Shown: one piece after another, positions 43,639 to 48,481 of the stretch
How the letters are laid out: each line of letters starts with the position of its first letter
Numbering within the stretch: the stretch's first letter is position 1
Assembly (NCBI RefSeq): GCF_006716345.1
Contig: NZ_VFOX01000001.1
Span: forward strand, 1,674,001 to 1,738,000
Origin: Microbacterium saperdae
Lineage (GTDB): Bacteria; Actinomycetota; Actinomycetes; Actinomycetales; Microbacteriaceae
Direction: 5' to 3'
Length of the DNA: 64,000 bases
Notes under the pieces: generated by a model
The model's input: only the letters and a program-made list of their open reading frames with translations
Database searches by the model: none
What the model was told of the DNA's origin: nothing
Position numbers and translations under genes: made by a program

Positions 43639-44880
43639 GTGACTCCTGCCACGACAAACAAATCCCGGACGACGAAGAAGGCCGCTGACGAGACCGCGAC
43701 CGAGGCTCCGGTTGAGACGAAGGATGCGGCTGAGAAGCCTGCGCCGCTGAGCGCAGCGAAGCGCGCAGCTGCCAAGCGCGCGCCCGCGAAGAAGAAGAAG
43801 GCCGACGACATCGTCGAAGACGATGAGGCGCCCGCCGCCGAGGCGGTCGACGAAGACGACGAAGACAGCAAGCCGAAGTTCACCGAGCCGCTTCCGACCG
43901 GCGCGATCGTCATCACGTCCAGCGACGAGGACGACGTTCCCGTCTACTCCTCGCAGATCACCGGCGCGACCGCCGACCCGGTCAAGGACTACCTGAAGCA
44001 GATCGGCAAGGTCGCGCTGCTGAACGCGGCCGAAGAGGTCGAGCTCGCGATGCGCATCGAGGCAGGGCTTTTCGCCGAGGAGAAGCTGTCGACGATGACC
44101 GCCGCGGAGAAGGCCGGTCAGCTCGGTCTCGATCTGCAGTGGGTCGCCCGCGATGGCCAGCGCGCCAAGAGCCACCTGCTCGGAGCGAACCTCCGCCTCG
44201 TCGTGTCGCTCGCCAAGCGCTACACGGGTCGCGGCATGCAGTTCCTCGACCTCATCCAGGAGGGAAACCTGGGTCTCATCCGTGCCGTCGAGAAGTTCGA
44301 CTACACCAAGGGATTCAAGTTCTCGACCTACGCGACGTGGTGGATCCGCCAGGCGATCACCCGCGCGATGGCTGACCAGGCCCGCACGATCCGCATCCCG
44401 GTCCACATGGTCGAGGTCATCAACAAGCTCGCCCGTGTGCAGCGTCAGATGCTCCAGGACCTGGGTCGCGAACCCACGCCGGAAGAGCTCAGCCGCGAAC
44501 TCGACATGACGCCCGAGAAGGTCGTCGAGGTGCAGAAGTACGGCCGCGAGCCGATCTCCCTGCACACCCCGCTCGGTGAAGACGGAGACAGCGAATTCGG
44601 TGACCTCATCGAGGACACCGAGGCCGTCGTCCCGGCCGACGCGGTGGGCTTCACGATGCTGCAGCGTCAGCTCGAGCAGCTGCTCGACTCGCTCTCCGAG
44701 CGCGAGGCAGGCGTGATCCGCATGCGCTTCGGCCTCGGTGACGGTCAGCCCAAGACGCTCGACCAGATCGGCGACACCTTCGGCGTGACCCGCGAGCGGA
44801 TCCGTCAGATCGAGTCGAAGACCATGGCCAAGCTCCGGCACCCGAGCCGCTCGCAGTCGCTGCGGGACTACCTCGAGTGA
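43639..44880 (+). CDS. sigA: Primary sigma factor (RpoD/SigA/HrdB)
   Basis: The 413-residue housekeeping sigma factor has a Lys/Ala- and acid-rich N-terminus, region 1.2 ([20 protein letters not shown]), and region 2 ([40 protein letters not shown]). Region 3 follows ([18 protein letters not shown]), then region 4 ([40 protein letters not shown]). The GTG at 43639 is chosen because GAAAGGCGAAAC precedes it; the frame is open to 43573. It is translationally linked to the next gene. Confidence 0.95.
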
Positions 44881-45572
44881 TGCAGGCGAACGAGGGCAAG
44901 GCGCTCGAGACCAGCGTCGACGGGAAGAACTACGCGCGGATCCCGCTGCGTACGCGCGTCGTGATGCCGGATGACGACCTCGATGCCGTCATCACGGAAT
45001 ACGCGAAGGACGCGGTACAGCCGGGGGACCTGCTGTTCGTGACCGAGAAGATCGTGGCGATCACGCAGGGACGGTCGTATCGTCTCGACGAGATCAAGCC
45101 CCGCAAGCTCGCTCTGTTCCTCTCGAAGTACGTCACCCGCACGCCGTACGGGATCGGGCTCGGCATGCCGGAGACGATGGAGATGGCGTTGCGGGAGTGC
45201 GGTACCCCGCGCATCCTCTTCGCGTCCGCCGTCGCAGCGGTGACCAAGGCGTTCGGACGTCGTGGCGACTTCTACCGCATTGCGGGAGACAAGGCGCGTG
45301 CGATCGATGGCCCGACCAAGCACACCATCCCTCCGTACAACGAGGCGGTCGTGCTCGGACCCAAGGACCCCGATGGCGTCGCCGCACGTCTGAAGGCTCT
45401 GATCGGTGGCCAGGCCGAGGTGGCGGTGGTCGACATCAACGATCTCGGTGGGAACATCCTCGGGTCCACGCTCGACAAGGACGGCGAGCGTCGTCTCGTC
45501 AAGATCCTCGGCGATAACCCGCTTGGTCAGGGTCTCGAGTCCACGCCGCTCGGTATCGTCCGCGCGATCTGA
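44880..45572 (+). CDS. F420-0:L-glutamate ligase-like (CofE-type) protein
   Basis: A 230-residue protein of the CofE fold family: DLLFVTEKIVAITQGRSY, LGMPETMEMALRECGTPR, VVLGPKDPDGVAARLKALIG, VAVVDINDLGG. True CofE adds glutamate to coenzyme F420; this shorter relative is widespread beside sigA in Micrococcales, even where F420 genes are not evident, and its substrate is unknown. The ATG overlaps the sigA stop (TGATG). GTG 44877 is an in-frame alternative. Confidence 0.82.
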   Translation: MQANEGKALETSVDGKNYARIPLRTRVVMPDDDLDAVITEYAKDAVQPGDLLFVTEKIVAITQGRSYRLDEIKPRKLALFLSKYVTRTPYGIGLGMPETMEMALRECGTPRILFASAVAAVTKAFGRRGDFYRIAGDKARAIDGPTKHTIPPYNEAVVLGPKDPDGVAARLKALIGGQAEVAVVDINDLGGNILGSTLDKDGERRLVKILGDNPLGQGLESTPLGIVRAI

Positions 45573-45639: not shown

Positions 45640-46656
45640 TCAGAATCCGATGACCTCGCGATAGCGCGGCTTGTGTCCCGTGCGGATGCCGGTGACGCTC
45701 GGCTTGTTCTCGTACACGCCCGCGCCCCAGTTGCCCTCCACCAGTACCGGGCCGTCGGGGGACACGACGATGTCCCATCCCACGTACTGCACTTCCGGAA
45801 CGACGCGTGCGACCTGGTCGATGAACGCGCGGACCTCGTCCATGTAGGGGAGCTGGAAGTCGGCGATCGGGAACCCTGTGTCGGGGTGCTTCTCGTGCAC
45901 GTGGCCGTGGGAGTCGTATCCGGCGCCGACGGAGTGACCGTTCTCGTCGAGCATCGTGTAGAAGCCGCCGAAGGTCATCTGGTCGCTGACCGCGCCGCGA
46001 CCGAACTTCTGCGCCATCGCGAGGATGTGCGCCTTCTCACCGTCGAAGAATGCCGTGATGCGCGTCGTGTTGACGGTTCCCGGGCACACCGCGGCGAGGG
46101 CATCGTGCTGGCGGATGACCTCTTCGATGAGCATTTCGCCGCGGGCGAGAAGTCCACGGTGGAACTCCTCCCAATCCTCGACCTCCGCCGCATGGTAGCG
46201 GTGCACGCCGGTCCCGGCCTGGCCGACCGGCTCCTTGGTCACGATCGTGCCGAGCCGCTGCGCGAACTCGCGGACGGCATCGGCGTTGCCCTCCTCGACG
46301 ACCATCCACTCCCGGTGGAGGTGCACCGAGAACTGCTTGTCGAACTCCACCTTGTCCTGGAAGATCCAACGGAAGTCCGGGTGGTCGTAGCGCTGCGAGA
46401 GCTGGTTCGAGACCGGGTGGGTCATGTACGTCTCGCGCTCCGCGCGGGTGAGCATCGCGAAATCGTAGTCGATGTAGTCCTGGAAGCCGACGTTGTGGCG
46501 TGCCGCTGACCAGAGCATGTCGACGACGATCGACGGCACCGCCTTGTGGTGCTGCGCAGAGGCCTCTTTGGCGCGCTCCACGACCGATCCGACGTCGATG
46601 CGGCGTGCGCGTCCGATCAGATAGCGAACGCGGGGCGCGAGGGAAAGACGTGACAT
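45640..46656 (-). CDS. Sugar-transfer-associated ATP-grasp protein
   Basis: A 338-residue protein of the ATPgrasp_ST type. Core blocks are REWMVVEEGNADAVREFAQ, TIVTKEPVGQAGTGVHRY, LLARGEMLIEEVIRQHDALA, PGTVNTTRITAFF and the metal-binding end YVGWDIVVSPDGPVLVEGNW. ATP-grasp enzymes form amide or ester bonds through acyl phosphates; this family is linked to cell-envelope polymers in other bacteria. It is divergent (83 bp) from two alanine-racemase-family genes, which suggests it may use a D-amino acid. The substrate is inferred only. Confidence 0.85.
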   Translation of the reverse strand: MSRLSLAPRVRYLIGRARRIDVGSVVERAKEASAQHHKAVPSIVVDMLWSAARHNVGFQDYIDYDFAMLTRAERETYMTHPVSNQLSQRYDHPDFRWIFQDKVEFDKQFSVHLHREWMVVEEGNADAVREFAQRLGTIVTKEPVGQAGTGVHRYHAAEVEDWEEFHRGLLARGEMLIEEVIRQHDALAAVCPGTVNTTRITAFFDGEKAHILAMAQKFGRGAVSDQMTFGGFYTMLDENGHSVGAGYDSHGHVHEKHPDTGFPIADFQLPYMDEVRAFIDQVARVVPEVQYVGWDIVVSPDGPVLVEGNWGAGVYENKPSVTGIRTGHKPRYREVIGF

Positions 46657-46739: not shown

Positions 46740-47444
46740 GTGTCCGACACGACTTCCAGCGCCCGAACGCATGCGGTGATCTCACGCTCCGCCTTGGCCG
46801 CTGCGGCGGAATCCGCCGTGCAGAGCGGGGGAACGGTCGCCGATCTTCGCCGCGACGCCTGGGGGCATGGCGTCCTGGCCGTGGCACACGCCGTGACCGC
46901 AGCCGGTGCGAGCAGTGTGCTGGTCGACTCCGTCGGGGAGATCGATGCGCTCGCCCTCGAAGGCATCACCGGAACCATCGACGGTGTCCCCGACATCGAC
47001 CCCGACCTTCTCTATGGACTGCCGGCCGGAGGCGATGCCTCAGCGCTCCGCCCCGTCATGAGGCTGGTCGGACACGTTCTCTCGACGAAGCGCCTGCGTG
47101 CCGGCGACGCGGTCTCCTACGGCTATACCCATCGCGCTCCCGCGGACACGGTCGTCGCACTCGTCACCGGCGGATATGCGCAGGGGGTCGTGCGGGCGCT
47201 GGGAAACCGGGCGCACGTCGAGATCGACGGCACGGAGCGCCTCATCGTCGGCCGCGTCGCGATGGATGTGTGCGTGGTCGATCTCGAGGGCACCGACGTC
47301 GCTGTCGGTACCGAAGTCACGTTCTTCGGCGGCATGGGGCCTGCTGCGCGCACGCTGACGCAGTGGGCGGCGATCACCGGACTCTCCGCCGCGGAGCTCA
47401 TCACCGTCGCCGGTGCGCACGCCGTCCGGGGGTGGGAAGCATGA
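46740..47444 (+). CDS. Truncated alanine racemase-like protein (C-terminal domain, no barrel lysine)
   Basis: The 234-residue protein has only the start of the PLP barrel (residues 10-75) and then a full racemase C-terminal domain. The lysine motif K-x-x-AYGHG reads RRDAWGHG here, with Arg37 at the lysine position and Trp41 for the tyrosine. About 150 barrel residues are missing. The C-terminal domain is good: AVSYGYTHRAP, GGYAQG (Tyr146, at the catalytic Tyr265 position of Bacillus Alr) and GRVAMD (Met175). The ATGA overlap with the next racemase gene suggests a paired function. Alone it should be inactive. Confidence 0.85.
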   Translation: MSDTTSSARTHAVISRSALAAAAESAVQSGGTVADLRRDAWGHGVLAVAHAVTAAGASSVLVDSVGEIDALALEGITGTIDGVPDIDPDLLYGLPAGGDASALRPVMRLVGHVLSTKRLRAGDAVSYGYTHRAPADTVVALVTGGYAQGVVRALGNRAHVEIDGTERLIVGRVAMDVCVVDLEGTDVAVGTEVTFFGGMGPAARTLTQWAAITGLSAAELITVAGAHAVRGWEA

Positions 47445-48481
47445 GCCGTCCGCAGCTGCGCATCAGCAGCCGCCAATTCCGGGCGAACATCGAATCCGTG
47501 AGAGACCGGATCGCGCCATCCGCGCTCATGCTGGTCGTCAAGGACGACGCCTATGGTCACGGCCTCTCGTGGGTTGTCGAAGTCGCTGAATCAGTCGGCG
47601 TCGAGTGGTTCGGCAGTTATGACGTGCGCAGCGCGCTGGATGTGCGCCGCGTCGCGGGTGGCGCCGTGCGGGTGTTCGCATGGGCTACATCGACCGACAC
47701 GGAGATCGACGACGCACTCGTGCAGGGGGTTGATCTGGGCGTCGGAACAGCGGAGTATCTGGGCCGGATCATCGCGCGCGCGGCCGCGCTCGGCGTCATC
47801 GCGCGCGTGCACCTCAAGATCGACACCGGCCTTCATCGCAACGGCGTGCTCCGCGAGGACTGGGACGATGTCGTCGCGGACGCTCGTGCCGCCGAGGTGG
47901 CAGGGCTGCTCGAGATCGTCGGAGTCTGGAGCCATATCGCGGAAGCCAGCGATGCAGAGGACGATGAGGCTCAAGCCGTCTTCCTCGACGCGGTGCGCGT
48001 GGTGGACGACGCCGGATCCGCTCCGGCGTGGCAGCACCTGACCGCATCGGCGGCCTCATGGTGGCGTCCCGAACTCCGCGGCACGCTGTCGCGGATCGGT
48101 GCCTTCTGCTACGGCGTCCGTTCGGCGGACGGCCCTGAACTCGACGGAATCCGCCCCATCGCCTCGCTGGTCGCCTCCGTGAAAGCGATCGTAGAGGGCG
48201 AAGCAGTCGTCGACATCGGCAGCTTCGACGGACTGCCGTCGACGCTCGCGGGGTCACCGGTCGGAACGCCGGGGGGAGCACGAGAGCTGCGACGGATCGA
48301 CCACACGTCGTCGGTCGTGCAGGGATGGCCCGGAATGGCGGCGGGCGATGAGGTGCACCTGTTCGGTGCGGGCGCTCACGGCGAGGTCAGCGCCACGACT
48401 CTTGCGGAGCGCATCGACACGGTCGGCGAGGAGATCCTCACGCGACTCAGTGTCCGTGTGCGACGGGTCGTCGTCGACTGA
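47441..48481 (+). CDS. Alanine racemase-like protein (intact barrel, altered C-terminal domain)
   Basis: The 346-residue protein has a full PLP barrel: Lys34 in LMLVVKDDAYGHG, the phosphate and carbamate-site region LKIDTGLHRNG (Arg133), SHIAEAS, LTASAASWW and the RIGAFCYG block. The C-terminal domain is degenerate: the catalytic Y-A-D-G block reads IGSFDG (Ser261 in place of the tyrosine), and the G-R-x-x-M-D block reads RRIDHTS. It should lack the second acid/base residue. Because that residue comes from the partner subunit, the upstream protein could supply it. Substrate amino acid unknown. Confidence 0.87.
   Translation: MSRPQLRISSRQFRANIESVRDRIAPSALMLVVKDDAYGHGLSWVVEVAESVGVEWFGSYDVRSALDVRRVAGGAVRVFAWATSTDTEIDDALVQGVDLGVGTAEYLGRIIARAAALGVIARVHLKIDTGLHRNGVLREDWDDVVADARAAEVAGLLEIVGVWSHIAEASDAEDDEAQAVFLDAVRVVDDAGSAPAWQHLTASAASWWRPELRGTLSRIGAFCYGVRSADGPELDGIRPIASLVASVKAIVEGEAVVDIGSFDGLPSTLAGSPVGTPGGARELRRIDHTSSVVQGWPGMAAGDEVHLFGAGAHGEVSATTLAERIDTVGEEILTRLSVRVRRVVVD

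Follow-up and report, generated by a model that had tools for sequence, protein, structure and literature searches.

A split alanine-racemase-fold gene pair of Microbacterium saperdae, a candidate heteromeric racemase of diamino acids

Alanine racemase (Alr; TIGR00492, with domains PF01168 and PF00842), a drug target, is the textbook case of a homodimer: its active site needs both subunits, and its solved forms are homodimers with two identical sites. The gene pair described here, A and B, lies at positions 46740-48481 of a 64,000-nucleotide stretch of the Microbacterium saperdae genome (contig NZ_VFOX01000001.1), called the window below. Unlike in Alr, the halves of the site are encoded separately, with one of the two sites dead; Asp or Glu takes the place of Tyr354, and scores stay under the TIGR00492 cut-off. 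The explanation that we consider likely as a whole is that of an obligately heterodimeric enzyme with a single composite site, acting as a diamino-acid racemase for a B2-type cell wall. Taken by itself, the composite site formed by A and B is highly probable, and the role as diamino-acid racemase for the wall is favoured with more reserve.

VanT serine racemases put the Alr fold to work for the cell wall on a substrate other than alanine, as is proposed for the pair, but they are single proteins. Ornithine decarboxylase antizyme inhibitor and the trypanosomatid prozymes are dead paralogues that accompany a live pyridoxal phosphate (PLP) enzyme or another enzyme; there the partner regulates, whereas A appears to supply catalytic residues. 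In the lysine and broad-specificity racemases Lyr, Bar and Bsr, Tyr354 is replaced, as in B, and the pocket is opened to long side chains (PMC3485190; this and the other papers given by PMC number are cited from extracts). These enzymes are homodimers with Thr or Ala at 354, where B displays Asp or Glu. The Arg-Asn pair that they need is present in B but is not diagnostic, because it also occurs in ordinary Alrs of the family. PddB, the diaminobutyrate (DAB) racemase of Streptoalloteichus hindustanus, inverts DAB but is described in the extract as cofactor-independent and weakly DapF-like, unlike the pair (PMC8225329). A literature search by titles and abstract starts, with most subscription papers outside its reach, gave among the papers listed none on a heteromeric racemase of the Alr fold and none on a gene for the D-ornithine (D-Orn) or D-DAB of B-type walls.

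Anatomy of the gene pair

A preliminary description of this DNA had proposed two overlapping racemase-family genes, and both open reading frames, their coordinates and the ATGA overlap were recovered here. The features are listed below; residue numbering of reference positions, here and throughout, is that of Geobacillus Alr.

46740-47444, + strand: gene A, GTG start, TGA at 47442-47444, 234 amino acids (aa); truncated Alr-like subunit
46848-46850, + strand: codon of A Arg37 at the PLP-lysine position (dead site), aligned to the PLP lysine of Mycobacterium tuberculosis Alr
47175-47177, + strand: codon of A Tyr146, equivalent to Tyr265' of Geobacillus Alr, aligned to the GYADG tyrosine of M. 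tuberculosis Alr
47262-47267, + strand: codons of A Met175-Asp176, equivalent to Met312'/Asp313'
47441-47444, + strand: ATGA, in which the stop of A and the start of B share 4 nucleotides (nt)
47441-48481, + strand: gene B, ATG at 47441, TGA at 48479-48481, 346 aa; PLP-binding barrel subunit with degenerate C-terminal domain
47540-47542, + strand: codon of B Lys34, the PLP lysine (Lys39), aligned to VVKSNAYGHG of Streptomyces lavendulae Alr
48221-48223, + strand: codon of B Ser261 at the catalytic Tyr265 position (dead site), aligned to S. lavendulae Alr
48428-48430, + strand: codon of B Glu330 at the specificity position Tyr354 (live site)

The PLP lysine and the catalytic tyrosine were never found on one window polypeptide: A displayed Arg37 and Tyr146, B displayed Lys34 and Ser261. 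Positions Met312 and Arg309 were also lost in B, and Tyr354 was encountered in neither protein (Ala218 in A, Glu330 in B). Gene A encoded a barrel remnant (about residues 13-83) followed by the alanine racemase C-terminal domain; PF00842 was its sole Pfam domain over cut-off (101 bits), the PF01168 remnant of 43 residues being sub-threshold. Gene B matched the whole of PF01168 (135 bits) and, weakly, PF00842 (33.7 bits). The Alr fold, a fold-type III PLP protomer made of a TIM barrel and a C-terminal beta domain, was recognised; neither A (101.2 bits) nor B (110.8 bits) reached the equivalog cut-off of TIGR00492 (168 bits) and both fell far below those of the VanT models.

The preliminary description had placed Arg37 at the PLP lysine and Tyr146 at the catalytic-type tyrosine of A, credited A with the GRVAMD motif and assigned Lys34 to a B without the catalytic tyrosine. 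Alignment to the two reference Alrs agreed on each point, Met175-Asp176 being present in A. Its estimate of about 150 missing barrel residues was fair, A being 134 residues shorter than the Alr of the same genome (234 versus 368 aa). The loss of Met312 and Arg309 in B, the acidic Glu330 at position 354, the extra Alr genes, the fusions and the proposed place in peptidoglycan synthesis go beyond it.

Translational coupling of A and B through the ATGA overlap is probable. A scan of the region for promoters and terminators found none. Three further full-length Alr-family genes were present in the window genome (two contigs), so that A and B are extra racemase genes. The same genome harbored, near 722-726 kb of its contig C2 (locus L002), a racemase that has His in place of Tyr354, flanked by D-Ala-D-Ala carboxypeptidase-like and D-Ala-D-X ligase-like genes in a small VanT-like cluster; these neighbours were named by eye, the ligase by domain match.

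Complementary loss and joint occurrence

Relatives of A and B were adjacent in many genera of a sample of 150 genomes of the family, with pairs in at least 41 of these genomes. Forty-three A+B pairs, of which 41 came from the sample (26 genera) and the other two were L173 and L174, were aligned together with two control sets, 20 canonical Alrs occurring singly and 15 tandem pairs of full length. Residue counts are without G124 (A cut off at a contig end) and G012 (a fragment at a contig end); L112 and L289 were kept apart, and the B of L111 is truncated. Roles of active-site residues follow the extracts of PMC3146814 and PMC3485190.

Lys39 was absent from all 43 A proteins (Arg in 28, other residues in 11, a gap in four), and so was Tyr354; the residues that cradle the cofactor were mostly gone, Arg136 remaining in five and His166 in two. 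A retained Met312 in 43 of 43, Tyr265 in 37 (Phe in the other six), Asp313 in 38 (Asn in five) and, three residues before Met312, Arg309 in 41. B displayed this arginine in only two of 43, with 35 rows being gaps, and Met312 in none of 42, while Tyr265 was kept in 13 of 43 and Asp313 in 31 of 42. Its cofactor residues were preserved in 257 of 258 instances (Lys39, Arg136, His166, Ser204 and Arg219 each 43/43, Tyr43 42/43), and position 354 was Asp in 25 and Glu in 17 of the 42 readable proteins. Counted by site, the live one, made of B barrel and A C-terminal domain, retained its residues in 375 of 387 alignment cells and the mirror one in 84 of 387. Canonical Alrs kept the site residues throughout (Ser or Thr at 204), and tandem copies were nearly intact (in first copies Phe265 in 2/15, Asn313 in 5/15, Trp354 in 2/15).

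Such complementary retention by site, with conserved halves of one site on two polypeptides, is what a heterodimer with a single site should show, and chance is excluded because the anatomy is conserved in 43 pairs. A and B would form an obligate heterodimer of the alanine racemase fold with a single working site. B would hold PLP on Lys34, cradled by Tyr38, Arg133, His165, Ser203 and Arg218, and would place the acidic Glu330 near the substrate side chain. A would contribute Tyr146, as second base, together with Met175 and Asp176 across the dimer interface. The mirror site, made of the A barrel and the B C-terminal domain, would be dead and decayed.

Two observations fit a composite site less well. 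Phe replaced the catalytic Tyr in six of the 43 A proteins, four of these pairs having no Tyr in either subunit, and the 13 B proteins that keep Tyr265 might in some cases work alone. The former is also what could be expected if B catalysed another reaction on the Alr fold with PLP, or if A were a regulator of the antizyme inhibitor or prozyme type supplying no base, for which related fold-type III decarboxylases offer precedents. We regard this as distinctly unlikely: A retains the trans-acting Tyr/Phe265, Met312, Asp/Asn313 and Arg309 and little else of the site, none of which a pure regulator needs, and in some fusions it shrinks to a bare C-terminal domain.

Joint occurrence was followed in 366 genomes of one genus group, taken to be Microbacterium because the nearest named A proteins are from that genus (e.g. 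M. croceum, 82 % identity). Of these, 298 gave a match to B (E<=1e-46) and 299 a match to A (E<=1e-28); 295 had both, 64 neither and seven, by score, only one, a joint tally that was compared by eye and is consistent with both separate ones. All seven one-sided genomes are explicable on inspection: B was in fragments in G219, matched partially in G403 and reduced to a C-terminal piece in G432; G461 had a diverged pair and G473 a full-length A; G422 and G423 carried single-frame A-B fusions of 549 and 531 aa. Named genomes, scanned through the neighbouring CofE-like gene, gave 80 loci, of which 42 had both genes, 36 neither, none only one, and two were incomplete. The interval to gyrB was intact in the 36 pair-less loci, and the order rpoD-CofE-ATP-grasp-gyrB was found in 17 of 19 pair-less genomes checked, the remaining two being without CofE. 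Of 39 pairs measured, 33 overlapped by exactly 4 nt, with B assumed to begin at the in-frame start codon closest to the stop of A. The homologues were thus not regularly found alone, and the split heteromeric racemase proposed in the preliminary description gains support from this co-occurrence, from the complementary loss and from natural fusions.

That the pair could be a degenerating duplicate with neither protein functional is hardly credible. Residues of the parent enzyme are indeed missing from both proteins, but the pair is conserved over 26 genera of the sample, including a genome of 0.93 Mb, the genes overlap, are gained and lost jointly and become fused, and 44 listed relatives share 66-89 % identity with A, whose active-site half is invariant. 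Random decay or artefact was rejected on the grounds of conservation and co-occurrence.

Three records with Microbacterium-type sequence (L208, P0173 and P0203) are filed under Stenotrophomonas maltophilia, Streptomyces sp. and Zhihengliuella sp., and are possibly mislabelled or contaminated.

Fusions, intermediates and a second split

As to fusions and INTERMEDIATES, 20 of the 120 listed homologues of a fusion were natural A-B fusions of 426-739 aa. P0013 (Parafrigoribacterium mesophilum) joined a full-length, lysine-less A to B, while in P0001 and P0018 the A part was reduced to approximately the C-terminal domain. The predicted structure of P0001, whose sequence differs from that of the window and whose A part lacks the barrel remnant, reached a predicted template modelling score of 0.89. 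P0055 was a minimal single-chain fusion, its B part being without most of the dead half of the C-terminal domain, and P0048 appears to be a piece of a longer one.

A quick tree of C-terminal domains, with support from the Shimodaira-Hasegawa-like approximate likelihood ratio test, grouped canonical, tandem-first and nearly all A-type domains on one branch (support 95). B-type and tandem-second domains fell outside it, as did the A-type domains of P0009 and P0063; long branches were formed by these two and by B of L272 and of L282. Fusions joined the tree at two well-supported places (99 and 95) and possibly at two more.

Full-length A proteins without the lysine were encountered at L089, L090, L092, L093, L097 and L098, and tandem full-length second copies displayed Asp or Glu at 354 in 15 of 15 cases. 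The pair would have originated from tandem alr-like copies, A losing first its lysine and afterwards pieces of its barrel. As the second tandem copies already carry Asp/Glu354, the order read from these sequences likely started with duplication and specificity change, followed by loss of Lys in A and of Met312 and Arg309 in B, barrel deletion and fusion.

Two tandem loci of full-length racemases, L116 and L117 (G034 and G109), deserve separate mention. The copy with Tyr354 had Phe265, its neighbour Tyr265 and Asp354, and this Phe265 first copy was the only strong Tyr354 Alr found in these genomes. Mutual dependence of the two copies is possible, as if the first already relied on its neighbour.

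A second pair in reversed gene order was found in G140 (L112:7107-8977) and G077 (L289:2989-4874). The first protein was a racemase with Tyr354, Lys39 and Tyr265 that had lost Met312; its partner displayed Thr in place of Lys and kept Tyr265, Met312 and Asp313. Besides the B of the main pair, neither genome gave a further PF01168 match better than E 1e-20. The reversed pair may represent a second split.

Locus, wall type and substrate

The pair is preceded in the window by two genes.

44877-45572, + strand: CofE-like (F420_ligase) protein, in a place occupied by MurT/GatD in other genomes
45640-46656, - strand: ATP-grasp ligase (ATPgrasp_ST), divergent from gene A

The pair usually lay between rpoD and gyrB: among 41 loci, made up of the window, L112 and 39 pair loci, rpoD was near the pair in 36 and gyrB in 38. 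MurT and GatD, homologues of lipid II isoglutaminyl synthase, were near the pair in 24 loci and a CofE-like protein in 14, usually with the ATP-grasp ligase alongside (11). Only L089 matched both modules, both weakly, and four loci had neither. The two modules look as if they were alternative ways to modify the D-glutamate carboxyl of a wall precursor. At the pair-less loci L154, L155, L156, L158, L165-L167 and L170, two consecutive ATP-grasp genes followed CofE, rather than one divergent gene.

EctB, a diaminobutyrate transaminase, was encountered at L096 and L292. The latter (L292:4242-9246, G461), from the genus of the window, held a Pseudoclavibacter-like pair with EctB and MurT/GatD; the nearest named relatives of its B were from Pseudoclavibacter (61-63 %), metagenome proteins being closer. 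It looks like a swapped diaminobutyrate cassette. A tight link of the pair to the transaminase was rejected on the counts given below.

Walls of Microbacterium contain L-Lys, D-Orn or DAB, and D-Dab is reported for Rhodoluna lacicola (extracts of PMC10757982 and PMC4156110, respectively). Of species with D-Orn in the wall, M. testaceum, M. hydrothermale and M. galbinum had the pair, and for M. croceum an A protein was found (A only). It was absent, as judged at the locus only, in the Lys species M. arborescens and M. saccharophilum (wall of the latter from PMC10978784). A simple rule equating the pair with D-Orn was rejected, six species agreeing with the reported walls and two disagreeing.

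The pair was missing in M. oleivorans. It was also missing in M. lacticum and M. hominis, whose walls we take to contain L-Lys, and present in M. hydrocarbonoxydans and M. aerolatum, whose walls presumably contain D-Orn; these four would agree with the rule.

Tyr354 sets the alanine specificity and is replaced in lysine racemases (extract of PMC3485190), and a cationic substrate would go well with an acidic residue at this position. Together, the replacement of Tyr354 by Asp/Glu, the locus and the wall types make racemisation to D-Orn or D-DAB the best-supported function, although it is inferred. The most likely substrate is a cationic diamino acid: ornithine for Microbacterium and, for other genera, probably diaminobutyrate or lysine. 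The product would be a D-diamino acid for the cross-bridge of B2-type peptidoglycan.

Several observations weigh against this role. M. radiodurans is reported to contain D-Orn, yet had no pair and no other B-like gene, and M. enclense is reported to contain L-Lys, yet its strain ZYFD042 has the pair; the wall-type source itself, in the extract, names both as differing from their clades. The ornithine of M. albopurpureum is given as L-, not D- (extract of PMC10978784). EctB stood at only two of the loci examined, and the DAB transaminase (TIGR00709 over cut-off) was not enriched with the pair, being detected in 11 of 58 genomes with a B-type racemase versus 17 of 92 others (n=150). Finally, in the 0.93-Mb genome G015 (L272:765-2649) the B of the pair was the only PF01168 match, and the D-Ala-D-Ala ligase Ddl was present; being the sole Alr-family match beside Ddl, the pair is argued to be an active racemase there that may accept alanine, which suggests that alanine can be a substrate.

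G015 speaks for a heterodimer acting mainly on alanine or serine, as an auxiliary supply of D-Ala, and the second, reversed pair with intact Tyr354 in G077 and G140 points the same way. As a general explanation this is nevertheless unlikely: at least one further match to B was found in 42 of the 43 genomes of the family sample with the pair or part of it (the exception being G015), the window genome has its three other Alr-family genes, all 42 readable B proteins are acidic at position 354, and the 64 pair-less genomes of the genus live without it.

In a heterodimeric diamino-acid racemase of this kind, evolution seems to have parted the halves of a shared site into two genes, to have rejoined them on more than one occasion and to have allowed the decay of the site left idle. 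The transition from homomer to obligate heteromer can be reconstructed because its intermediates survive, as full tandem copies, full-length A without lysine, A without barrel, and fusions. The broadest reading, to which we give about even chances, is that the alanine racemase fold has here its first heteromeric member, an obligate two-gene enzyme whose one composite site makes the D-ornithine or D-diaminobutyrate of type-B peptidoglycan; gain, loss and replacement of the rpoD-gyrB cassette would then set the wall chemotype of the family (L-Lys, D-Orn or D-DAB), and the split would have evolved a second time, for an alanine enzyme, in one genus (G077, G140). B-type peptidoglycan has long served in taxonomy as a marker, and the pair is a candidate for the enzyme behind its D-diamino acids.
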